This document shows, piece after piece, positions 2,602 through 15,321 of a stretch of 24,246 bases of DNA. Positions within the stretch are counted from its first letter, which is position 1. Each line of letters opens with the position of its first letter. Source of the stretch: a virus; the IMG/VR virus record IMGVR_UViG_3300010367_000063, positions 1 to 24,246 of that record; one strand, written 5' to 3'. A model generated the notes under the pieces. It did no database searches, was not told the DNA's origin, and was given only the letters and a program-made list of their open reading frames with translations. A program made the position numbers and the translations under genes.

Positions 2602-3332
2602 TAGCGCTCCCCGACTGTCACGTTATGGGCTGCAAGCCATCGGCTAAATTGCGCGTCGCCCTCAGGGCCTTTGCCGAACGACGAGCGAATTTGACTGGCA
2701 TTGACGCGCGGAAGGATTGTGGGCGTAGCGCCACCCGATTGCGCGGCGGCTGGCTGATCGATCGTATAGCCCTGCGGCAGGGTTGCGCCGAGCGGAGCGG
2801 CTGGCGTCTGGTCGCCACCGCCCCAGCCTGCGGAAACGGGAAGATAGGTGCCGTCAGGCTGGCGGATATTGGCGGCATTGAATTTCGCCCAACTGTCGGC
2901 AAAGTCCTTGCCATATTTGCCAGCGTAGAAGTTGTAATCGTTCGCGGTGTCGTTGTTACCCGGCTTCGGGTGCGCGGCCTCGTAATCGTACTGCTGCTGC
3001 CAATCGGCATACTTGTTCGCGCGCTCGCGTTGAGCCATCGCGGCGTCGTACACCGCCTTCTGGCGCATGGCCTGCGTCTGGGCGAAGATCGGCTGGCCGC
3101 CCTGCCACTGCGCCAGGCTGTCGCCGACAATGCCGGCGATCGACTGGAGAGTGCTTGGCTTCCTGAAACTAGGTCCGGCCGGTTGCGTAGGCGCAGACCC
3201 TGTAGTCCCCGGCGCTACCGGAAAGGCCGATGGTAAAAACGGGGCCCCATTGTCTGCCGGGGCCGAAGCCGGCAATGGTGATGGGTAGAAGTATGACGGC
3301 TTCTTCATCCGCGCGCCGAAAATACCAGCCAT
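2601..3332 (-). CDS. putative virion protein of unknown function
   Basis: This encodes 243 aa. The N-terminal 60 residues are rich in Pro, Ala and Ser and probably disordered. Residues 60-115 contain a Gln/Ala-rich amphipathic helix region (QTQAMRQKAVYDAAMAQRERANKYADWQQQ). The C-terminal third is again Pro/Gly-rich and ends in a short segment with SRWLAAHNV. I recognise no enzyme motif. The ATG at 3332 overlaps the stop of the preceding gene (TGATG), and its own TAA overlaps the start of the large ejection-protein candidate. This tight coupling between two Ala-rich proteins suggests that the three are made together, as P22 gp7, gp20 and gp16 are. The assignment to the ejection set is by position and composition only. 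Confidence 0.75.
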   Translation of the reverse strand: MAGIFGARMKKPSYFYPSPLPASAPADNGAPFLPSAFPVAPGTTGSAPTQPAGPSFRKPSTLQSIAGIVGDSLAQWQGGQPIFAQTQAMRQKAVYDAAMAQRERANKYADWQQQYDYEAAHPKPGNNDTANDYNFYAGKYGKDFADSWAKFNAANIRQPDGTYLPVSAGWGGGDQTPAAPLGATLPQGYTIDQPAAAQSGGATPTILPRVNASQIRSSFGKGPEGDAQFSRWLAAHNVTVGER

Positions 3333-4015
3333 CAGCCACCTCCCCCACCGAACGCGCCGCCGGCATAAGCCTGCGCGGCGCTGGCTGCCAAAGACGCGAT
3401 AAGCGAGCCAAGAGACGGACTGCTCTTCTGTGTCGTGTTTGTGTACTGTCCGAGCAGCCCACCGACTGCTGACGCCTGACCCGCCGCCGCTTGTACTGGC
3501 GCCTGCTGGGCTTGGGCTGCCGAGATGGCCGCTGTGAGGGGAAGGTAGCTGGCAGCCGCTTGGCCGGGCGCGTTCGCGGCTGCCGCATCCATCCGGCCCA
3601 TCTGGTTGTTGTAATCGGTATAACGAAGGCCGCTTTCATTCTGGGCCAGGGCGCGCGAAATGATGTCGCCGAACGCCGAGCCCCCCGTAAGCCCGCGCGT
3701 GCCAAGCGACGCCTCCAGACCGTTTCGCGTGTGGTCGTTGGTCTGCCCGACGATCGCATCGAGCTCAGGGCTGCCGTGCAGGTATTTCCCGCTCAGCACG
3801 TCCCGATCATACGACGCTGCGGCGTTCACGGTCGGGTCGCCGTTGGTATACTTATCAAGCAGGCCGGGAACCATGCCGCCGATCGCGCTTGCCGACTGCG
3901 CAATGCCAGGTGCCGCAGCATTATAGGCGCTCGAAACGTTGTTTGCCGCGCCTTCAAGCTGGGGTGAGTATACCGGCTTTGTGCTGGTCTTCGTTGTGCT
4001 TGAGCTAAGCCCCAT
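3332..4015 (-). CDS. Ala/Gly-rich putative internal virion protein
   Basis: This encodes 227 aa starting MGLSSSTTKT at 4015. The frame extends upstream to 4144, but that extension overlaps the preceding gene heavily and is basic and unlike the rest, so the inner ATG is preferred. The protein is dominated by Ala, Gly, Ser and Gln. It has a long Ala/Gln-rich segment near residues 135-175 and ends in Gly repeats (AGGAFGGGGG). Residues 85-120 (LEASLGTRGLTGGSAFGDIISRALAQNE) resemble a conserved block I associate with short-tailed-phage internal proteins. It overlaps the GNAT-like gene by 11 bp and the following gene by TGATG. A role as an ejection or core protein is inferred from composition and place. 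Confidence 0.75.
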   Translation of the reverse strand: MGLSSSTTKTSTKPVYSPQLEGAANNVSSAYNAAAPGIAQSASAIGGMVPGLLDKYTNGDPTVNAAASYDRDVLSGKYLHGSPELDAIVGQTNDHTRNGLEASLGTRGLTGGSAFGDIISRALAQNESGLRYTDYNNQMGRMDAAAANAPGQAAASYLPLTAAISAAQAQQAPVQAAAGQASAVGGLLGQYTNTTQKSSPSLGSLIASLAASAAQAYAGGAFGGGGG

Positions 4016-6839: not shown

Positions 6840-7482
6840 CGGCCACCTGTCCAATACCCTGCGGCGTCAGCGGTCCCGAACCCCAACGCGCCTTTGCGCT
6901 GGAGGTCTGGATAGACGCGATGATCTCTTGCATTTCGTTGCCGGCCTGCGCCTCGCCGTCGCTATCCCGTTCACGACGGGCGACGTGGTAAAGCGTCGCG
7001 GCAACGTAGAGGTCGGCGTGCTTGTCCAGCAGCCAGTTGCTCGGCGAAGTAATCGTGAGCGCCGGGATCGCCGCGAAATACAGCATGTCGAACGTCGCAT
7101 TACCGACCGGGCCGAAGCGGAGGCGCTGGCCCTCGATCGCGTAACCCTGTGGGCTTCCCGACACACCGCGATACGTCATGTACAAACCTGCCGGGCTATA
7201 GCTGATCAGATCGCGGCAGGGATCGGCGGCATAGCGGATCGACCGCATTTCAAGGAAGTCTTCGGGGACGTTGGAATATTCCGTCGTGACGATCAGCGGC
7301 GCGACCGTCTCCATCTCTGGTGTGCGAAAGACCCGGTTGAAATGAGCCTCAGCTTTGCGAATAGCGCTGTCGATCGCGCTTTGCGGGTAGGCCGCGTTGT
7401 CGACCATATCGCGGATTTCATCGATCAGGTCGCTATAACTGGTGATCGCTGCCGCTGCTGAGAGGTTTAGCGCAATAGACAT
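6826..7482 (-). CDS. head-tail adaptor protein (SU10/P22 gp4-type position)
   Basis: This encodes 218 aa with an ATG at 7482 preceded by GAGGGGA. The N-terminal part (SYSDLIDEIRDMVDNAA...IDSAIRKAEAHFNRVFRTPEME) forms predicted helices that bind the portal ring in this adaptor class. A beta region follows (residues 60-145), then a C-terminal helix (LDKHADLYVAATLYHVARRERDSD), which is a hallmark I recognise in phage adaptors. The gene sits between capsid-region genes and the gp10-like protein, where P22 gene 4 or the SU10 adaptor would be. The likely job is to join the portal to the tail after packaging. No lytic activity motif is seen. Confidence 0.75.
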   Translation of the reverse strand: MSIALNLSAAAAITSYSDLIDEIRDMVDNAAYPQSAIDSAIRKAEAHFNRVFRTPEMETVAPLIVTTEYSNVPEDFLEMRSIRYAADPCRDLISYSPAGLYMTYRGVSGSPQGYAIEGQRLRFGPVGNATFDMLYFAAIPALTITSPSNWLLDKHADLYVAATLYHVARRERDSDGEAQAGNEMQEIIASIQTSSAKARWGSGPLTPQGIGQVAGGRA

Positions 7483-7493
7483 CGGCTATCCCC

Positions 7494-7811
7494 TCAAAGC
7501 ATGAAGTGGTTGACGCGGAGGTATCGGTATTCGTTGCTGTTCAGGAGGCGTTTGACCCCATCAGCGTGGGCGGGATTCCAGAACTCGATCCCGAACTTGT
7601 CCAACCACTCGAATTGAACCTCTGGCGGGATCGACGCGGCAAGGCGCATTTCCTTGCCCATGTTGTGGCCCTCGATGGCCTTGTTGCGCTCGACCACCGC
7701 CTTCGACACGATCCGATCGATATCGGTGCGAAAAATGTGCTGCTGCGCGTCGTCGTCCCAATCGTGATAGACTTTCACCCCACTCAAGGGGTTCTCGGAC
7801 AGCAGCCGCAT
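7494..7811 (-). CDS. conserved small protein of the head-tail region, function unknown
   Basis: This encodes 105 aa from an ATG at 7811, close to the upstream 55-aa gene. The sequence is charged and mostly helical, with aromatic clusters (VYHDWDDDAQQHIF, FEWLDKFGIEFWNPAHADGVKRLLNSNEYRYLRVNHFML). The closing block, WNPAHADGVKRLLNSNEYRYLR, looks like a conserved motif of a family found beside capsid genes in SU10-MCP phages, but I cannot name it. It may be a minor head or head-completion component. Confidence 0.75.
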   Translation of the reverse strand: MRLLSENPLSGVKVYHDWDDDAQQHIFRTDIDRIVSKAVVERNKAIEGHNMGKEMRLAASIPPEVQFEWLDKFGIEFWNPAHADGVKRLLNSNEYRYLRVNHFML

Positions 7812-7813
7812 TC

Positions 7814-7981
7814 TTAGCTGTCCTTGGGCTCGACGACCTTGGCCGCCTTCAGCACCTTGTACTGATCCGCCGTCAGCGCAACGAACTCGCCGGCACCCTT
7901 CTGGAGGCCTAGCGGACTCTCGGGATCGGACACGAAGTTTCCTTCGGTCACGACATATTCCTTGGTGGCTACGTCAGCCAT
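7814..7981 (-). CDS. small acidic protein after the capsid gene (55 aa)
   Basis: ATG at 7981 with a strong ribosome site (GGGAGAA) 6-7 bases upstream and TAA at 7814-7816. The product begins MADVATKEYVVTEGNFV and ends KVVEPKDS, with a central GLQKGAGEFVALTADQYKVL segment. Short proteins of this type (extended strand, then a short helix) occur next to major capsid genes in several phages and may decorate the head. The ribosome site, tight packing and matching codon use support a real gene. The function is unknown. Confidence 0.65.
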   Translation of the reverse strand: MADVATKEYVVTEGNFVSDPESPLGLQKGAGEFVALTADQYKVLKAAKVVEPKDS

Positions 7982-8004
7982 TATGATTCTCCCTTGGGAA
8001 TGAA

Positions 8005-8028
8005 GGGCGGGAGCCGAAACCCCCGCCC
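8005..8028 (-). terminator. GC-rich hairpin after the major capsid gene (terminator-like or attenuator)
   Basis: On the minus strand a 7-bp GC-only stem (GGGCGGG/CCCGCCC) with a 10-base loop lies 8 bases after the capsid stop codon and is followed by TTCATT, a poor U-tract. It may be a partial terminator or an mRNA 3'-end stabiliser. Either would raise capsid protein output relative to downstream genes. The structure is seen directly; the function is inferred. Confidence 0.45.
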
Positions 8029-8035
8029 CAAGTCA

Positions 8036-9001
8036 TTACGGCTGGATGTCGGCGATGACGCCGTTGCCGAGCTCGTTGTCACAGCGCAGGGTGTATTCAC
8101 CCCACATCAGGCGACGGGTGCTGTTGCCATTTTCGGCCAGCGGCTTGTCCTGCAACGGCTGGAGCCAGCACACCGACCACAACGACGGGTCGAGGATCAT
8201 CGCATCGCGGCCGGTCGTGAAGCGCGACGGGACAAAGGCGACGTTGCCAAAGTCCGACACGTACACATCAGCCGCACCGATGATCGTGGCCATGCCGCTC
8301 CCGACCTCATGGCGCTGCTGAGCAATGCCCGTGAAGGTCGAAAACGTCTGCTTGATGAGGCCAGACATCATCGCCATCTTCGGCTTACCGCCGGCCGACC
8401 AGGCAAGCTGCATCACCGTCTTGAGCATCGCTTCGGTAACGGTGCGCAGCGTGCCGTTGGTCGCCGCCGCGTTGACATAGCCCGACGTGGTGCCGGACAA
8501 GGTTGACGCCGCGCCACCAGCACCGCGCGAGGCGTTGGTGCGGATCATCGCGACTGCGCCCGACGCTTCACCCGCCACCGACGAGGTTGACGGAACCGCA
8601 GCGTAGTTGCCGCAAAGGCGCGTTTCGATATCGCGGCGAAGTTCCGGCGCGACCTTGGCCATTTCATAGGCCATCTGCTTGTTGCGACCGGCCTTGTTGA
8701 CCGCGTCCGCCGTATCCGACACCTGGACCGTCTTGCGCGAGATCTGGGTGTAGTTGCCCATGCGCTTCGTCGGGCTGCGGGCATCGTTGACGGCGTCGTC
8801 GCCTTCGACCGCCTTGTTGGTGCCGCTGGCTGCGGCAAGGCTGTCCGTCTGCCATTCATGCAGCGTCTGCTTGGCGGTGCCAGAGCCGATGTTGTTCATG
8901 AACGGCGTTTCGGTCGGGTCGATATTGCTGATCTTGTCGATCAGGTCTTCGCGCACACCGACGAGAGCGGTGCGCTGGACGGTATTTGAAGGTACTGCCA
9001 T
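8036..9001 (-). CDS. major capsid protein, SU10 type (DUF5309 family)
   Basis: This encodes 321 aa with an ATG at 9001; the ribosome site is weak. The N-terminus reads EDLIDKISNIDPTETPFMNNIG and is followed by HEWQTDSLAAA. I recognise this pattern as the SU10-type major capsid family, formerly DUF5309. A KRMGNYTQISRKTVQVSDTADAV block and the central MKTVMQLAWSAGGKPKMAMMSG segment also fit that family. The length is typical. It is encoded directly after the scaffold gene and should build the HK97-fold shell. A terminator-like hairpin follows the stop codon. Confidence 0.9.
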   Translation of the reverse strand: MAVPSNTVQRTALVGVREDLIDKISNIDPTETPFMNNIGSGTAKQTLHEWQTDSLAAASGTNKAVEGDDAVNDARSPTKRMGNYTQISRKTVQVSDTADAVNKAGRNKQMAYEMAKVAPELRRDIETRLCGNYAAVPSTSSVAGEASGAVAMIRTNASRGAGGAASTLSGTTSGYVNAAATNGTLRTVTEAMLKTVMQLAWSAGGKPKMAMMSGLIKQTFSTFTGIAQQRHEVGSGMATIIGAADVYVSDFGNVAFVPSRFTTGRDAMILDPSLWSVCWLQPLQDKPLAENGNSTRRLMWGEYTLRCDNELGNGVIADIQP

Positions 9002-9057
9002 GGGGAAGTGTCCATCTAAGGGAGGGTTTACGTCTCACGACGTGGAACCGGGGCTGG

Positions 9058-10017
9058 TCAGCCTAGCGCTGCCTCCACAAGGGCGGCGGCGGTGTCACGG
9101 CTGGGCTTCGCCTCGAACTGTTTGACGAGCGCGTGGCCGTTCGCGCTGCCTGCTGGCTGGGCTGCGTTCGGCTTCATGGTCTTCGTCCCGCCCTGGCGGA
9201 CGCGCTGCATCTTGCGGCTCATTGCGGCATCGAATTTGCCCGCCTTGTCCTTCCAGTCGTGGATCTGGCGAAGCTTCTGCCACTCTGCCGCAGTGGCACC
9301 GTTGAGGGCGTCTGACTGCAGGCCGAGCGTCGTCGCAACGTCGATCGCCTTCTTGAAGAACTCTTCGCGGGTGGCCTCGTTCTGAACCTCAGGGAGCGCC
9401 ATGAGCTCTCGGTCGCGTTGAGCGACGAAAGCTTGGTCGATGTCCGTCGATGCCTGCTGTTCGAAAGCCTGAACCTGCTGCACGAATTGATCGTACTGGG
9501 CACGTTCGGCTTTGTAGCGCGCGTCTAGGGCAATATATTGGCCGGGATCGACTTCGGCGATGGCCGGGTCGGGCGGCTGCGGCGCGTTGGCGTCGGTAAA
9601 GGCCTTAAGCTGCGCCGCATAGCGCTGGCGGGCCTGTGCGTCGGCGGTGGCTGCGTTTGCTTCCGCAATGCGCTGGGCCTCGCTCGCCTTCGTGGTCGCA
9701 GTCTGAACCTGCGCGTTCCGCCTCGTTTCCAGCTCGGCTACGAATTGCTGGGCTTCTTCGGGAAGCTGCGCGTAGCGGGCCTTCTCTTCGGCTGTCAGGC
9801 TGACGGGGGCTGCGATGGCCGGCGCTGCCGGTTCACCCTCCGCTTCACCTTCACCTTCGGCTTCAAGGTCGAGAGGATCAATCTCCCCTTCCCCCGACGC
9901 CTCAGTCTCATTGCTGACAATGCCGTCGTCGGCATCCAGCGATTCACCAAGTGCCGCGGTCACGCTGTCCAGGTCGACAGGCGCGCCAACGGCTTCCGGA
10001 GCTTCCGGATGGGCCAT
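9058..10017 (-). CDS. capsid scaffolding protein
   Basis: This encodes 319 aa with an ATG at 10017 and an AAGGAAA ribosome site. The composition is typical of phage scaffolds. Residues 1-75 are very acidic (GEGEIDPLDLEAEGEGEAEGEP), residues 75-200 form Gln/Ala/Glu-rich coiled coil (QQFVAELETRRNAQ...), and the C-terminal region is basic (AGKFDAAMSRKMQRVRQGGTKTM), as needed to bind capsid protein. It sits immediately before the capsid gene. Scaffold is expected to guide procapsid assembly and then leave. I see no protease motif, so exit without cleavage is more likely. Confidence 0.85.
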   Translation of the reverse strand: MAHPEAPEAVGAPVDLDSVTAALGESLDADDGIVSNETEASGEGEIDPLDLEAEGEGEAEGEPAAPAIAAPVSLTAEEKARYAQLPEEAQQFVAELETRRNAQVQTATTKASEAQRIAEANAATADAQARQRYAAQLKAFTDANAPQPPDPAIAEVDPGQYIALDARYKAERAQYDQFVQQVQAFEQQASTDIDQAFVAQRDRELMALPEVQNEATREEFFKKAIDVATTLGLQSDALNGATAAEWQKLRQIHDWKDKAGKFDAAMSRKMQRVRQGGTKTMKPNAAQPAGSANGHALVKQFEAKPSRDTAAALVEAALG

Positions 10018-10539: not shown

Positions 10540-12628
10540 CGAGCTTGCCCCCGTCGCGGTTCTTCTTCATCTGCGCTGCCTTCGTGGCATTAGCGTGCAT
10601 CGCGACCGTTGCCTGAACGTTGGTCCGATACGTGTCCAACTGCGCCTCAGTGTTCGTGCGGTATTGCTCGGCGATAAGCTTGGCCTGCGCCGCGTCGGCG
10701 TTGCCTTGGTGCGTCTGCTGAAGGTCGAGCGCCTTTAGCTGGATCTCGGCCATGTTGCGTTCATGGTCCATCTGGAGCTTGGCGGTCGCGTTCTGCTGGT
10801 CGTTCAGCACCTTGATCATTGCCGGATCGGGCGGTGGTTGCTCGCCCTGCTGTTGTGCGGCCTGCTGAGCTTCTGGCGAGTCTGGATCGATCCAGTAATC
10901 ATCGCCCTGGCCAAGGCCCATGTCACGAACCAAGCCATCGAACATGTTGAACATGTTCTTGTCGCTGACCTTCTTCGCCTGGAAACCCTCTGCCATGATC
11001 GGCGCGAGCGACATGCGGTTTTGAATGCGTTGATCCTTGCGCCCTGAGCCGAGCCCGACGCGGATCGTGACATTCATTTCCTCAGGCCAATTAGCCGGGT
11101 CGACCATCACATATTGACCGTCGACCTTCACCTTGAACGGGTCAGCCTCGCGGCGCATCAGGCGATACTTCTTCGCCATCAGTCGCGAGAATGCCTCAGC
11201 AAGGTTGCGAGCGATGAATTCTTCTTGCTGCTGGCCCTGCGCCTGCATCAGCGCCGTACCGGTCGCGGTCTTGTTCAGCGCGTCGGCGTCGAGCCCTTGG
11301 TTGAGGCGCGTAATGCCGGTGCGGCTTTCGCGCTCGCCCGTCATCCACTCCATGACGGTAAGCGACTTACCAACGTCGAACGTCGTGTTGTACGGCACGA
11401 TCGCGTCGGCTGTCTTCACCCGAATAGGACTGCCCGGCACTGGCGACAGCAAATCCCCGATCGTCTGCTCATTCGAGCCTTGGTCGCTCACGACAGGACG
11501 CGGCATGTTGGCGTTATACATGCCGTCCATCAATTGCCGGGCGATGGTCGACCGGAAAAACTGGATGTCCATCACCTTATCGGCAAGGCTGTACCCAACC
11601 AAGCGATGAGGACGCGGGAACGGGCAGAAGACACTAAACGGCTGCTCTTCGACCGTCTCGATCGATGGCTTGCCAGTCTCGCCGTCGATCAGGATTTCGT
11701 TCTCAACACGGAACACCCTGACACGCTCGGCAATGCCGTCATTGTCCAGGTCAATGCGGGCGTATTCCTCCCACAATTCGACATGCTGAAGCGCTGTCGT
11801 GCTTTCCGGGTCATTCCATCCCGTCCCGTCGCGATCGGTGCTGTAATCGAGCGGAGCGGACTTGGACGGCAGGTTATAAGCTTGATCGCGGTCGAAGCCC
11901 ATGTCGACCAGATCCGACCGCGTTTTCAGGCTCACATGCGCGAGATAGTCCGCCTCATCCTCATGACGGGCGCGCGGGCTGAAACGGAACTCATACGCCG
12001 GGATCGGCATATCGATGAAGCGCTTTTCGCGGCGCTCGGTCTTGATCGTGAACTGCGGGCCGTTCGGGCCGTCTTCCTGCTTCTCGATCTCGCCGTCGAT
12101 GCCCTGGAGCGCCATCATCAAGTGAAGCTGCTCTTCGCTCTGCGCCTCAACCTTCTGGTGGCTTACCCTCTCCTCAACCACCAGCACGGTCTTGGCGACG
12201 CCGTAGCGCTCCAACAACCCACTGACGCACCAATCGTGGAGAACGCGATAGCCGTCCTGCTGACGCATGAAGTTGAAGCCGATGGCCGCTGTAGCCTCTC
12301 GCGCGCCTTGCTCTGACTCCTCATCAGTAGCTTCGAACTCGACAACCCGATCGCCCGATACGAACGTGCGCAGGACCGACACCGACATGTAATCGATCGT
12401 CTCTTGCACGTCGGGAAGGATGACCTGGCTGCGGCCCTTGACCTCGTTGCCGAACTCCTTGGCCTCGTAATAATCGAGGGCGAGCTGCTGATCGAGCTTC
12501 AGCCGGTCGTATTCGCTCTGTGCCGCATTGGCCTCACGACGCAGCGCCGCGACCAGCATTTCCGTGTCGATCGCCGGGCCTTCCTCGCCCTCGTCATCAA
12601 CCTGGGCACTGGTCTGGGGCTGTAGCAT
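10532..12628 (-). CDS. portal protein (SU10/podovirus type)
   Basis: The ATG at 12628 overlaps the terminase stop (TGATG) and gives 698 aa; a TTG one codon upstream is less likely. The N-terminus is acidic, then the region from residue 25 (AALRREANAAQSEYDRLKLDQQLALDYYEAKEFGNE) and the SVLRTFVSGDRVVEFEA block are typical portal clip/wing sequence. The core contains FCPFPRPHRLVGYSLADKVMDIQFFRSTIARQLMDGMYN, a long-helix portal signature. The C-terminal 130 residues are Gln/Ala-rich coiled coil (QQNATAKLQMDHERNMAEIQLKALDLQQTHQ), suggesting a barrel-like extension into the head, as in P22 gp1. It forms the dodecameric ring for DNA packaging and tail attachment. Confidence 0.9.
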   Translation of the reverse strand: MLQPQTSAQVDDEGEEGPAIDTEMLVAALRREANAAQSEYDRLKLDQQLALDYYEAKEFGNEVKGRSQVILPDVQETIDYMSVSVLRTFVSGDRVVEFEATDEESEQGAREATAAIGFNFMRQQDGYRVLHDWCVSGLLERYGVAKTVLVVEERVSHQKVEAQSEEQLHLMMALQGIDGEIEKQEDGPNGPQFTIKTERREKRFIDMPIPAYEFRFSPRARHEDEADYLAHVSLKTRSDLVDMGFDRDQAYNLPSKSAPLDYSTDRDGTGWNDPESTTALQHVELWEEYARIDLDNDGIAERVRVFRVENEILIDGETGKPSIETVEEQPFSVFCPFPRPHRLVGYSLADKVMDIQFFRSTIARQLMDGMYNANMPRPVVSDQGSNEQTIGDLLSPVPGSPIRVKTADAIVPYNTTFDVGKSLTVMEWMTGERESRTGITRLNQGLDADALNKTATGTALMQAQGQQQEEFIARNLAEAFSRLMAKKYRLMRREADPFKVKVDGQYVMVDPANWPEEMNVTIRVGLGSGRKDQRIQNRMSLAPIMAEGFQAKKVSDKNMFNMFDGLVRDMGLGQGDDYWIDPDSPEAQQAAQQQGEQPPPDPAMIKVLNDQQNATAKLQMDHERNMAEIQLKALDLQQTHQGNADAAQAKLIAEQYRTNTEAQLDTYRTNVQATVAMHANATKAAQMKKNRDGGKLDA

Positions 12629-14124
12629 CAAACTATCCCCTTCATCAGGTTGCCAAGGTCTAGCGGTTGGTGGGCGACAGGAACCGGCCTGATCGCCGCA
12701 CTTTCGAAACTCTTGTATCCGTGGCTGGACCAGTCATGCAGCGGGTGGTCTTTGAACGCCCCGCGCTTGTCGTCCCATTCTTTCCGATAGCTATCGAGGC
12801 ACTTGATCAGCTTGGCGCAGCGGACTTCATCGATGTAGACGTTCGGGAAGAATGTCCGCGATGCTTCGATGCCGTCCTGCTCCGTCTGAATGCGCTTCAA
12901 CACTTCGATCGGCTTGATGCCGGCAGATTCCGCTTCCTGCCGGCGGGTCGTAGCCTTCACGTTAAGCATGCGGTGATCGGCATCGTGCGGCATGAAATGC
13001 CCGGAGTAGTGATACCCTCGCTCGGTCAGAATTCGGGCATAGTGCCCGAACCCCTCGCCGTTGTTCTCGTAGTAATCGACCGCGCGGCGCTCCATCCCGA
13101 CATCCTGCCAGAACGTGATCGCCATGCTGTCGTCCAGACCTAGATCCCATGTCGTGTAGACCGGCGAGTCCAATACCGGGATGCGGCAAATGCGTCCTTG
13201 CTTTCGCATGTTCGTCATCTGCGTGCTGAAATACGCGCCCTCGACACTGGCCTCAAACGCCTCCTTCGCCGTAGAAGGAAACTCGCGCTTGATATCCTCG
13301 CCCTGCTGCTCGGCCTTCTTGACGTACCAGGCGCGCTGGCTGTCATCCAAGGTGACGCCAGCCGCGACCTCGATCCGCTCGAAATATTCCTCCATCTCGC
13401 GCGTGATCGTCACATTGGCCGGATCAAGCCGATATTCCTTCGTCGTGAACCACGGCGCGAAATGGAACTTGAAATCGAGCGGCGTCAGGGTCACCCCCGA
13501 TTGCTCCTTGGCTTGCGCGATCTGGCACATGTCGTGGAAGTCCCCAGCCTGCCCTTCAGCCGTGCTTTCGACAGTGATGTTCTGACCCACCTGAACTGTG
13601 TTGAATGCGCCTGTGCGGACCTCCCGCGCCTTCTCAGGGTACTTTGCGCAAAGCTTTCCATATTCGCTGACGTGGAGCCTTTGGAGCGTGCCAGAACGCA
13701 GCGACGTGCCAACGCGAATGCTCGACCCGTTGCTGAACTTCATCGAATCGGCGGCGTCCTGTGCCGCGCTGACAACGCCGCGGAACACCTCGGGCAGATT
13801 ATCGTAAGCGAACTTGATCTTATCAGCGAAGAACGCCTTCGCGTCGTTCAGGTTGTGCGCGATCACGCCAGCAGCCGTATTCGGGACGAACAGGCAATCA
13901 TCCAGCATGTCTAGCTGAATGACGGTCGTGAACCCTTTCTGCCGGGCTTTGAGAACCACGTCCATGCCGTGGCGCTCGTCAAGGAACCGAGCCTGATCCT
14001 CATTCATGCAGAACGGCTCGGTTTCGCCCTGCTTGTTTTTGATCTTGTAGAAACCGCCAGCCAGTCGCGCCCGCTTATCAGGCCAACGAGCTAGGGCGGC
14101 TTCTAGGATTTCAGCCCCAACCAC
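12628..14124 (-). CDS. terL: terminase large subunit (ATPase-nuclease packaging motor)
   Basis: This encodes 498 aa from a GTG at 14124 overlapping the small-terminase gene by 22 bp. The Walker A-like loop is RQKGFTT (residues 61-67), the usual terminase variant. Walker B fits LHVSEYG (150-156, catalytic Glu154) and the coupling motif is TVESTAEGQ (184-192). The nuclease domain starts with YTTWDLGLDDS (323-333, metal-binding Asp327), and further acidic candidates are at HDAD (380-383) and HDWSSHGY (463-470). That last segment is the usual end of the RNase H-fold terminase nuclease. It cuts concatemeric DNA and pumps it into the prohead through the portal. The packaging strategy (headful or cos) cannot be told from the sequence. 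Confidence 0.92.
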   Translation of the reverse strand: MVGAEILEAALARWPDKRARLAGGFYKIKNKQGETEPFCMNEDQARFLDERHGMDVVLKARQKGFTTVIQLDMLDDCLFVPNTAAGVIAHNLNDAKAFFADKIKFAYDNLPEVFRGVVSAAQDAADSMKFSNGSSIRVGTSLRSGTLQRLHVSEYGKLCAKYPEKAREVRTGAFNTVQVGQNITVESTAEGQAGDFHDMCQIAQAKEQSGVTLTPLDFKFHFAPWFTTKEYRLDPANVTITREMEEYFERIEVAAGVTLDDSQRAWYVKKAEQQGEDIKREFPSTAKEAFEASVEGAYFSTQMTNMRKQGRICRIPVLDSPVYTTWDLGLDDSMAITFWQDVGMERRAVDYYENNGEGFGHYARILTERGYHYSGHFMPHDADHRMLNVKATTRRQEAESAGIKPIEVLKRIQTEQDGIEASRTFFPNVYIDEVRCAKLIKCLDSYRKEWDDKRGAFKDHPLHDWSSHGYKSFESAAIRPVPVAHQPLDLGNLMKGIV

Positions 14125-14411
14125 CGCTTAACGTCGTCTGAGATATCGCCCGTCAGATTGGCGTCGACCTCTTTCGGAATGATCGAGGCGATGGCGCGCA
14201 CGTATTCGTTCGGCTGCTTGTCGCGCATCTGAAGGATCGCTTCAGCGCCGCCCTTTGCGAAGTCGTCTAGCAGCGCTTGGCAGAAGTCCTCTGCGAGCTT
14301 TGAGCGCGCACCCTTCGGCCGTCCGTTCGGATTGCCGGACTGCCCTGGCTGCCAGGGAGGCATCAGGTTTGGATTACGCGGTGTTTCTTGTGGTGTATCT
14401 TCACCAGTCAT
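14103..14411 (-). CDS. terS: terminase small subunit-like protein with DUF5681-type N-terminus
   Basis: This encodes 102 aa with an ATG at 14411 and a GGCGAGG ribosome site. Residues 18-34 read PPWQPGQSGNPNGRPKG, the diagnostic motif of the DUF5681 family, whose genes sit directly before large terminases in alphaproteobacterial phages. The rest is a helical region (SKLAEDFCQALLDDFAKGGAEAI) and a C-terminal tail that probably contacts TerL. It should recognise the packaging start site. It is the first gene after the permuted tRNA and its terminator, so it marks the start of the late operon. Confidence 0.8.
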   Translation of the reverse strand: MTGEDTPQETPRNPNLMPPWQPGQSGNPNGRPKGARSKLAEDFCQALLDDFAKGGAEAILQMRDKQPNEYVRAIASIIPKEVDANLTGDISDDVKRWLGLKS

Positions 14412-14589
14412 GATCGCTACCTCGCCTCGGCTTCCGCGCTAGCGAATGGGCCGATCTGGGTTGCTGGAAATTTCCCCGCCGCTCAATCAGTGCCGACCGC
14501 AGGGCTAAGAAGCTGTCTGTGTCGCGTCGGATGGAATGGCGGCGGGCCGGGTGTGTTCGGTAAGGGGAACGACCACGCCCGGAATGAGA
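14412..14589. other. intergenic region between terS and the tRNA terminator
   Basis: About 180 bases with no credible gene. The part nearest terS holds the ribosome site and probably the late-operon leader. If the phage uses a cos or pac site, this is a natural place for it, but I see no diagnostic repeat. Confidence 0.4.
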
Positions 14590-14592
14590 AAA

Positions 14593-14618
14593 GGCCCGGA
14601 AGCCGAAGCCGCCGGGCC
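14593..14618 (-). terminator. intrinsic terminator of the permuted tRNA transcript
   Basis: On the minus strand GGCCCGG pairs with CCGGGCC (7 bp, all GC) around a 12-base loop containing CTTCGG, followed at once by TTTTCTC. The stem begins 10 bases after the last nucleotide of the tRNA 5' half. It separates the tRNA unit from the late operon, so late transcripts that start upstream must read through it. Confidence 0.8.
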
Positions 14619-14628
14619 TAATGAATGT

Positions 14629-14732
14629 GGAAGCGAGCTACCGGGCTGCTCTACCGCTATCCCCAACGGGTCGTGGCCACGTCGCTGGTATATTGCGGGC
14701 CGGATTTGAACCGGCGACCTCTTCCTGAACAG
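14629..14732 (-). tRNA. circularly permuted tRNA gene (3' half upstream of 5' half), initiator-like body
   Basis: On the minus strand the 3' half comes first (14725 to 14691): anticodon-stem strand GGAAG, variable loop AGGTC, T-arm GCCGG-TTCAAAT-CCGGC, acceptor strand CCGCAAT and discriminator A. A 30-base intervening segment (14690-14661) follows, then the 5' half (14660 to 14629): acceptor strand ATAGCGG, TA, D-arm GAGC-AGCCCGGTA-GCTC, G26 and anticodon-stem strand CTTCC. The halves pair as a normal cloverleaf: acceptor 6 of 7 (A-A at 3-70), D stem 4/4, anticodon stem 5/5 and T stem 5/5. Invariant A14, G18G19, A21, TTC and C48 are present. CCA is not encoded. The anticodon loop is where the gene is broken; the bases before GGAAG are CTGTTCA and those after CTTCC are ACATTCA. 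U33 is present only if the loop comes from the 3' half, which would give anticodon GUU. D-arm, variable loop and T-loop match alphaproteobacterial initiator tRNA. Function is unknown. Confidence 0.85.
14661..14690 (-). other. intervening segment joining the two tRNA halves
   Basis: This 30-base linker folds on itself: CCAGCG can pair with CGTTGG (one G-U), enclosing CGT-GGCC-ACG. It would stack on the acceptor stem as an elongated hairpin in the precursor. It also contains TACCA soon after the discriminator base, but not in the position of an encoded CCA tail. RNase P and 3' processing would have to remove this segment to give free tRNA ends. Confidence 0.6.
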
Positions 14733-14768: not shown

Positions 14769-14797
14769 TCGATAGCAGATTGTGTTCCCGTAATCAA
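14769..14797 (-). promoter_or_regulatory. sigma70-type promoter for the permuted tRNA (and possibly late operon)
   Basis: On the minus strand TTGATT (14797-14792) and TATCGA (14774-14769) are separated by exactly 17 bases. Transcription would start near 14762, about 30 bases before the tRNA 3' half. The -35 box overlaps the stop codon of the upstream 175-aa gene. There is no activator site that I can recognise. Confidence 0.55.
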
Positions 14798-15321
14798 TAG
14801 GCTGTTTCGAAATGAAGCGCGAGCGCGTCCAATGCGTTTCGGGTCTGTGCGAACGTCCGCATTTGAGCGCGGCCGCGGTATTGCGGAAGGCTGTCGTGTA
14901 TCAGCAGCCGGTCGAGGAATGCGATCATGTCGCGCGGTATGGCTTCCCTAGCGCCACGCCAGCGCGATCGTGCGCGAGCCTGTGCATCGGTGCGGGCTAA
15001 GCCATAGTCTGTCTCTCCGCCCGTTGTGCGCTCGCCATAGGACGCCACGACCCTGGGGGTTGCGATGGCGCGCATGTGAAGCGAGCGGTATTCGTGGCCG
15101 GCGGCGTATTGACGCTGTGAGATGATCAGCCGGCGGTGCCATTGGTCTAGCCGCGTTTCCTTGCGGAACTGGCGGACGTATCCGATCCGCTGTTCGCTGC
15201 TGTCGATCTTGGCTGGATCCACGAATATGCTTTCGTCACCCTTGGCCAGACGTTCTGGCGTCGCGTCGATTACAGCTTCAAGAACCCGCGCCCGCTTACG
15301 CTTTGCCCCGCCCCTAGCCAT
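14794..15321 (-). CDS. 175-aa basic protein before the late region, possible late regulator
   Basis: ATG at 15321, ending at 14794. The N-terminus is very basic (MARGGAKRKRARVLEA). The centre has WHRRLIISQRQYAAGHEYRSLHMRA, which resembles the RQ-x-AG-x-x-Y/F pattern of DUF6456-type phage and alphaproteobacterial proteins. The C-terminal half is helical (IPRDMIAFLDRLLIHDSLPQYRG...NALDALALHF). Its position, last gene before the terminated short RNA and the late operon, is where lambda-like phages encode their late regulator or antiterminator. No zinc site or established antitermination motif is visible, so this role rests on position only. Confidence 0.7.
   Translation of the reverse strand: MARGGAKRKRARVLEAVIDATPERLAKGDESIFVDPAKIDSSEQRIGYVRQFRKETRLDQWHRRLIISQRQYAAGHEYRSLHMRAIATPRVVASYGERTTGGETDYGLARTDAQARARSRWRGAREAIPRDMIAFLDRLLIHDSLPQYRGRAQMRTFAQTRNALDALALHFETAY

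Follow-up and report, generated by a model that had tools for sequence, protein, structure and literature searches.

The window, that is, the whole stretch of DNA analysed here, is a virus record of 24,246 bases from a phage whose portal and capsid are of the SU10 type. The nearest relatives of its terminase in bacterial genomes are found in a Sphingomonas prophage (84%) and at a Pelagerythrobacter marinus locus (78%), and because these are the closest terminase relatives, the host of the phage is probably a sphingomonad. The element that forms the subject of this work is located on the minus strand, where a co-directional gene array ends. It occupies the gap between a conserved 175-aa ORF, which ends at 14794, and the likely small terminase gene (14411). 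The features of this region, in the order of transcription, are as follows.

14794..15321, minus strand: conserved ORF of 175 aa upstream of the element, with a 61% identical homologue in the relative L171
14734..14751, minus strand: 5' flanking hairpin GCGTCTG-AGGA-CAGGCGC, from the fold
14691..14725, minus strand: segment resembling a tRNA 3' half, transcribed first, from sequence and fold
14661..14690, minus strand: 30-nt spacer between the halves, from the fold
14629..14660, minus strand: segment resembling a tRNA 5' half, transcribed second, from sequence and fold
14588..14618, minus strand: hairpin resembling an intrinsic terminator, GGCCCGGCGGCTTCGGCTTCCGGGCC, followed by TTTTC
14103..14411, minus strand: small ORF of 102 aa (DUF5681) downstream of the element, likely the small terminase subunit
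12628-14124: large terminase, right after the small terminase ORF

The 175-aa ORF gave no match in Pfam or PHROG. The terminator-like hairpin with its T-run begins ten bases after the 5' half, and a hairpin and T-run are present at the same position in the relatives L099, L171, and L336. The RNA perhaps begins at the 5' flanking hairpin; upstream of the element, no match to a promoter consensus was found. Although the terminator region is present in its nearest relatives, the element itself is absent from L085, L171, and L336, and no homologue was found at this site. This distribution indicates that the element is an accessory insertion; because there is no homologue at the site, selection on it cannot be shown. 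In the Sphingomonas prophage L336, the small terminase gene is separated from the conserved terminator/leader region by the insertion of an additional ORF (3166-3700, plus strand), which by eye is a GIY-YIG endonuclease.

Sequence and fold of the permuted element

On the minus strand, positions 14725-14691 read GGAAG AGGTC GCCGG TTCAAAT CCGGC CCGCAAT A, corresponding to the 3' strand of an anticodon stem, a variable loop, a T arm, the 3' strand of an acceptor stem, and a discriminator A. Beyond the spacer, positions 14660-14629 read ATAGCGG TA GAGC AGCCCGGTA GCTC G CTTCC, which corresponds to the 5' strand of an acceptor stem, U8-A9, a D arm with the initiator-type pair A11-U24, position 26, and the 5' strand of an anticodon stem. 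The circular permutation of 14725-14629 (minus strand) is real, and the order, strand, and 30-base spacer given in a preliminary description of this DNA were confirmed by direct reading. The pairing that it had reported was recovered as well: a descriptor scan gave 5/5 pairs for the T stem, 6/7 for the acceptor stem, 4/4 for the D stem, and 5/5 for the anticodon stem, with a variable loop of 5 bases. The acceptor stem has an A.A mismatch at its third pair. All bases of the tertiary core are intact (U8, A14, R15-Y48, G18G19, A21, G46, T54 T55 C56, A58, and G53-C61), in agreement with the invariant bases noted previously.

The minimum-energy fold of the 97 nt is the permuted cloverleaf, with or without the terminator. 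In both forms the pairs of the anticodon stem have probabilities of 0.86-0.97, which fall to about 0.42 in one intermediate fragment that ends inside the terminator and partly folds otherwise. The spacer forms CCAGCG/CGTTGG and a further, inner stem, and the resulting hairpin lengthens and caps the acceptor stem. Compared with shuffles, the stability of the fold is unremarkable for its composition (z -0.64).

The descriptor score of the element, 23, was reached by 0 of 200 dinucleotide shuffles of the window. When halves were paired at random from 1014 real tRNAs, an anticodon stem of 5/5 together with an acceptor stem of at least 6/7 was obtained in 0.14% of cases, or in 0.011% when Watson-Crick pairs only were counted. 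Because shuffles and random tRNA halves so rarely match this fit, the two halves belong together, whether as a designed pair or as descendants of one tRNA, and the earlier statement that chance is very unlikely is upheld. Other full-score matches in 4.35 Mb of DNA were tandem copies of one tRNA, modules of the Y-RNA type, a single module lying within another tRNA, and one stand-alone module from a sphingomonad genome.

Comparison with YrlA Y RNAs and permuted tmRNA

A permuted tRNA-like architecture is already known from the YrlA Y RNAs, in which, according to alignments, the tRNA-like domain has the circularly permuted order T arm, capped acceptor, D arm. The preliminary description had stated that no permuted tRNA is established in bacteria or phages; at the level of RNA architecture this is wrong, given that YrlA Y RNAs share the order, and for phages it is contradicted by similar modules in phages that encode Ro60. 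The new part is the module standing alone. According to PMC8394870, the basal stem of YrlA binds the Ro60 relative Rsr, its tRNA-like domain binds PNPase, and the RNA is a substrate of DusA and TruB. Like YrlA, the phage element runs from the T arm through a capped acceptor to the D arm, has a helix at the anticodon position that leads to open ends, and conserves the D/T core; RNAs of this kind are found in phages and, as this analysis shows, in Sphingomonadaceae. In contrast to YrlA, the element has no basal Ro60-binding stem, its spacer is a 30-nt hairpin, its D arm is of the initiator type, and a terminator-like hairpin follows.

The best tRNA-related Rfam match of the element was YrlA (RF02553), with a sub-threshold 24.4 bits (gathering cut-off 69), a low score that is not diagnostic, since a tRNA array (L172) also matches, but that says something about the architecture of the element. 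Bona fide YrlA were found in several Sphingomonadaceae above or near this cut-off, with up to 74.5 bits, and three Sphingomonadaceae YrlA lie about 1 kb from weak Ro60/TROVE matches. A full-length model of the sphingomonad YrlA matched only the tRNA-like part of the element (15 bits, positions 27-102 of 135), whereas the phage Y RNAs in L301, L217, and L278 align to it end to end (1-135) with 35-68 bits. A basal Y stem is absent from the window: the YrlA model stops short of the flanks, and pairing between the flanks is no better than in shuffles (duplex z +0.3). No TROVE/Ro60 gene was detected in the 24-kb record, but the record may be a fragment, and sphingomonad Ro60 gives weak scores with Pfam TROVE.

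Permuted modules are present in further phage records, and TROVE is encoded in five of these (L217, L301, L326, L495, and L493); several phage Y-RNA-like modules in Ro60-bearing records carry a clear basal stem. Y-RNA-like permuted modules were also seen in the phage tRNA arrays of L217, L301, L278, L218, L223, L238, L248, and L279. Where checked, these scored 36-40 bits with the Rfam YrlA model, below its cut-off of 69, and several are situated in records without a detectable TROVE gene. In the tRNA array of L217, a ROOL RNA (8971-9618, plus strand; Rfam 298 bits) is located about 30 bases upstream of the Y-RNA-like module.

Permuted two-piece tmRNA (RF04321, alphaproteobacterial tmRNA) resembles the element in that the acceptor-side piece is encoded before the 5' piece, but the phage element has a canonical 4-bp D stem and an anticodon stem. 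The window contains no match to a tmRNA family at E<=1 in Rfam, and neither a tag reading frame nor pseudoknots as in tmRNA were seen in the element. With no Rfam match and no tag frame, tmRNA identity was rejected.

Origin and possible role of the element

Both halves are closest to tRNA-Met(cat), with 19/20 identical positions in the D arm and 24/29 in the T region, and the A11-U24 pair of initiators is present in the D arm. Since phages of this terminase family often have an ordinary tRNA-Met upstream of the terminase, an origin of the element from tRNA-fMet is likely. An unannotated ordinary tRNA-fMet was noted in Erythrobacter phage ZS04 (PV416405.1; L209, about 2960-3036, plus strand), between the large terminase and portal genes.

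The reading that we favor, and to which we would give roughly even chances, is that of a stand-alone permuted tRNA mimic, derived from an initiator tRNA and placed just upstream of a terminator. We infer a small structured RNA: 14725-14629 (minus strand) would form the 3' end of a transcript or an independent sRNA, ended by the terminator at 14618-14588. It would fold as the permuted cloverleaf, in which the core of the D and T arms is intact, a hairpin seals the acceptor, and the ends lie open at the anticodon stem. In the manner of the YrlA effector domain, the RNA would mimic a tRNA while being neither charged nor decoded, and would present the tRNA elbow to tRNA-recognising proteins without a Ro60-binding stem. 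For YrlA, the known partners are PNPase or tRNA-modifying enzymes. The lack of a homologue at the site, the z value of -0.64, the A.A mismatch in the acceptor, and the lack of a promoter consensus speak against this reading. If it is real, the tRNA-mimic head of the Y RNAs has been separated from Ro60, and a small phage uses the permuted tRNA fold on its own. This would suggest that the fold as such has a function, for instance in binding PNPase, enzymes that modify tRNA, or defence nucleases that cut it. The case also shows a blind spot, as ARAGORN miscalls such modules and, with the Rfam YrlA model, many phage copies come out far below the cut-off.

The main rival, which we consider rather unlikely, is a relic of tandem duplication: a duplicated phage tRNA-fMet would have lost its outer 5' and 3' halves, leaving a 3' half, a spacer, and a 5' half without function, and the remaining halves would pair on account of their common parent gene. 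Phages and hosts often carry one tRNA in tandem copies, whose junction looks like a permuted tRNA; the tRNA-Met-like character of both halves, the frequent tRNA-Met upstream of the terminase in this family, and the absence of the element from near relatives are likewise consistent with such a relic. However, all stems and every base of the tertiary core are intact, the outer halves have left no recognisable remains, the element, in contrast to a tandem array or a tRNA-fMet near the terminase, holds no complete tRNA and is negative with ARAGORN, and the spacer is a cap hairpin on the acceptor, as in the module of L184 described below. The neat placement between a gene end and the terminator in a compact phage also argues against a relic.

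The preliminary description had proposed a permuted tRNA gene, of which the permutation stands, whereas a decoding tRNA is not supported. In such a gene, the ends in the anticodon loop would be ligated, RNase P and 3' nucleases would remove the spacer, and CCA would be added to give a tRNA that decodes, or the RNA would work in two pieces. The intact core agrees with this proposal, as does the likeness to the circularly permuted tRNA genes of red and green algae and Thermofilum, in which the 3' half also precedes the 5' half, a spacer separates the acceptor strands, and a full cloverleaf is formed; these algal and archaeal genes have the same gene order and a BHB junction (PMC3978253). Unlike them, the phage element has no BHB-like pairing of its ends, no anticodon or U33, and a capped acceptor. 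The 5' half ends in CTTCC-ACATTC, and positions 32-33 are therefore A-C, so that U33, near-universal in tRNAs, is missing; no readable anticodon can be assigned in the element, and CCA is absent after the discriminator. With its flanks unpaired, the element shows nothing like a BHB splice site. A Pfam scan of 19 window proteins turned up no RNA ligase, and ARAGORN finds no ordinary tRNA. Because U33, an anticodon, CCA, pairing ends, and an RNA ligase were not found, the element probably does not encode a decoding tRNA, and, with the mismatch and the stable capped extension of the acceptor also counting against it, a true permuted tRNA gene appears very improbable.

Just as improbable is a processing or 3'-end element of an early mRNA, whose tRNA-like fold would serve as a cleavage site for RNase P or recruit tRNA-binding proteins, and so determine where and how the transcript ends. 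The element is indeed located directly upstream of a terminator hairpin conserved in position, at the end of a co-directional gene array, but the relatives use the terminator without it and the paired acceptor extension should hinder RNase P; pairing between the leader and the 3'RCCA is described as inhibiting RNase P (PMC9433436). Slightly less probable still is descent from YrlA instead of a tRNA, with loss of the Ro60-binding stem: the match to Rfam YrlA is weak (24.4 bits), and, at equal spacing, the 5' flank CGAATTGCGTCTGAGGAC is similar to the 5' strand of YrlA, CGAATGCCTGACGGAC, a faint likeness given little weight (p 0.00-0.38 over eight YrlA, mostly 0.05-0.09), but the 3' flank shows no resemblance, the full-length YrlA model stops before the flanks, and the initiator-like D arm (19/20 to tRNA-Met) is unlike the YrlA GCTCAG..GGTAGAGC.

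Other permuted modules and related searches

No homologues of the element were found in INPHARED by blastn, and pattern scans of the fMet type returned only ordinary tandem or odd tRNAs, L184 excepted. The modules described here are a minimum, since looser pattern scans contributed those among the matches listed. With R1, a generic covariance model built for the permuted module, tandem tRNA junctions also scored high (57 bits for a tRNA-Asn pair); the score alone is therefore not discriminating, and every match was filtered for overlapping complete tRNAs.

A second stand-alone module is present in L184 (7092-7192, plus strand), between the head genes of an actinophage-like record (phage head operon), at a position where the relative L191 has much shorter intergenic DNA. 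Its anticodon, T, D, and acceptor stems have 5/5, 5/5, 4/4, and 5/7 pairs, respectively, the z value of its fold is -2.8, and its spacer also caps the acceptor with a hairpin. It likewise is without U33, having C-A at positions 32-33, and neither a Ro60-binding stem of the module nor a Ro60 gene was detectable. Directly downstream (7205-9229, plus strand), a head-protease gene is fused to an RNA-ligase-like (2H) domain, and this protein has relatives in over 1000 actinobacteriophages. The idea that this RNA-ligase-like neighbour joins the ends of the module was dropped, as no link was found.

The third stand-alone module, L533/L558, was found in a sphingomonad genome (G052, contig 39; L558 7214-7142, minus strand) and has a near-consensus promoter-like site, TTGACA-17-TAGAAT, upstream. 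Neither a Y stem nor TROVE was detected for it. This module is situated between a gene for an AAA_21/OLD-like ATPase and the KAP NTPase gene of the candidate defence family PDC-S49, and a PD-T7-1-like gene is nearby. Regular accompaniment of the module by PDC-S49 was rejected, since it was seen in 1 of 4 genomes (G052 only). The module L533 resembles YrlA (81% over 66 nt), whereas the element of the window resembles tRNA-Met, and the stand-alone cases therefore need not share an origin and may be convergent.

In an alignment of 19 natural modules, which took in the window element and L184 and left out L533, compensatory changes were observed at 20 of the 21 pairs of four helices, although the covariation is inflated because the members were picked by a pairing filter. 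On the basis of the window, L184, and L533/L558, it is possible, if on balance doubtful, that there is a class of stand-alone permuted tRNA mimics in phages and bacterial mobile or defence loci, which would have no Ro60-binding stem and would act independently of Ro60 on proteins that bind or attack tRNA.

A different arrangement was seen in the related phages L469 (10418-10241, minus strand) and L492 (1208-1382, plus strand), where a second, complete tRNA-like cloverleaf (ACTTCTA...TAGAAGT) carries within its anticodon loop a permuted module whose hairpin spacer measures 29 nt, resulting in a double-headed tRNA-like RNA. TROVE was not found in these two records.

A role of the window element as attP was rejected: its 3' half matched no host tRNA (<=3 mismatches of 28) in 299 Sphingomonadaceae genomes, which represent the family of the nearest prophage host and thus the predicted family of the true host, and no integrase was found among the window proteins scanned. 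In the Arthrobacter phages Galaxy and Coral (L208 and L212, about 2990-3035), an unannotated tRNA 3' half is present upstream of the integrase and is likely the attP core.
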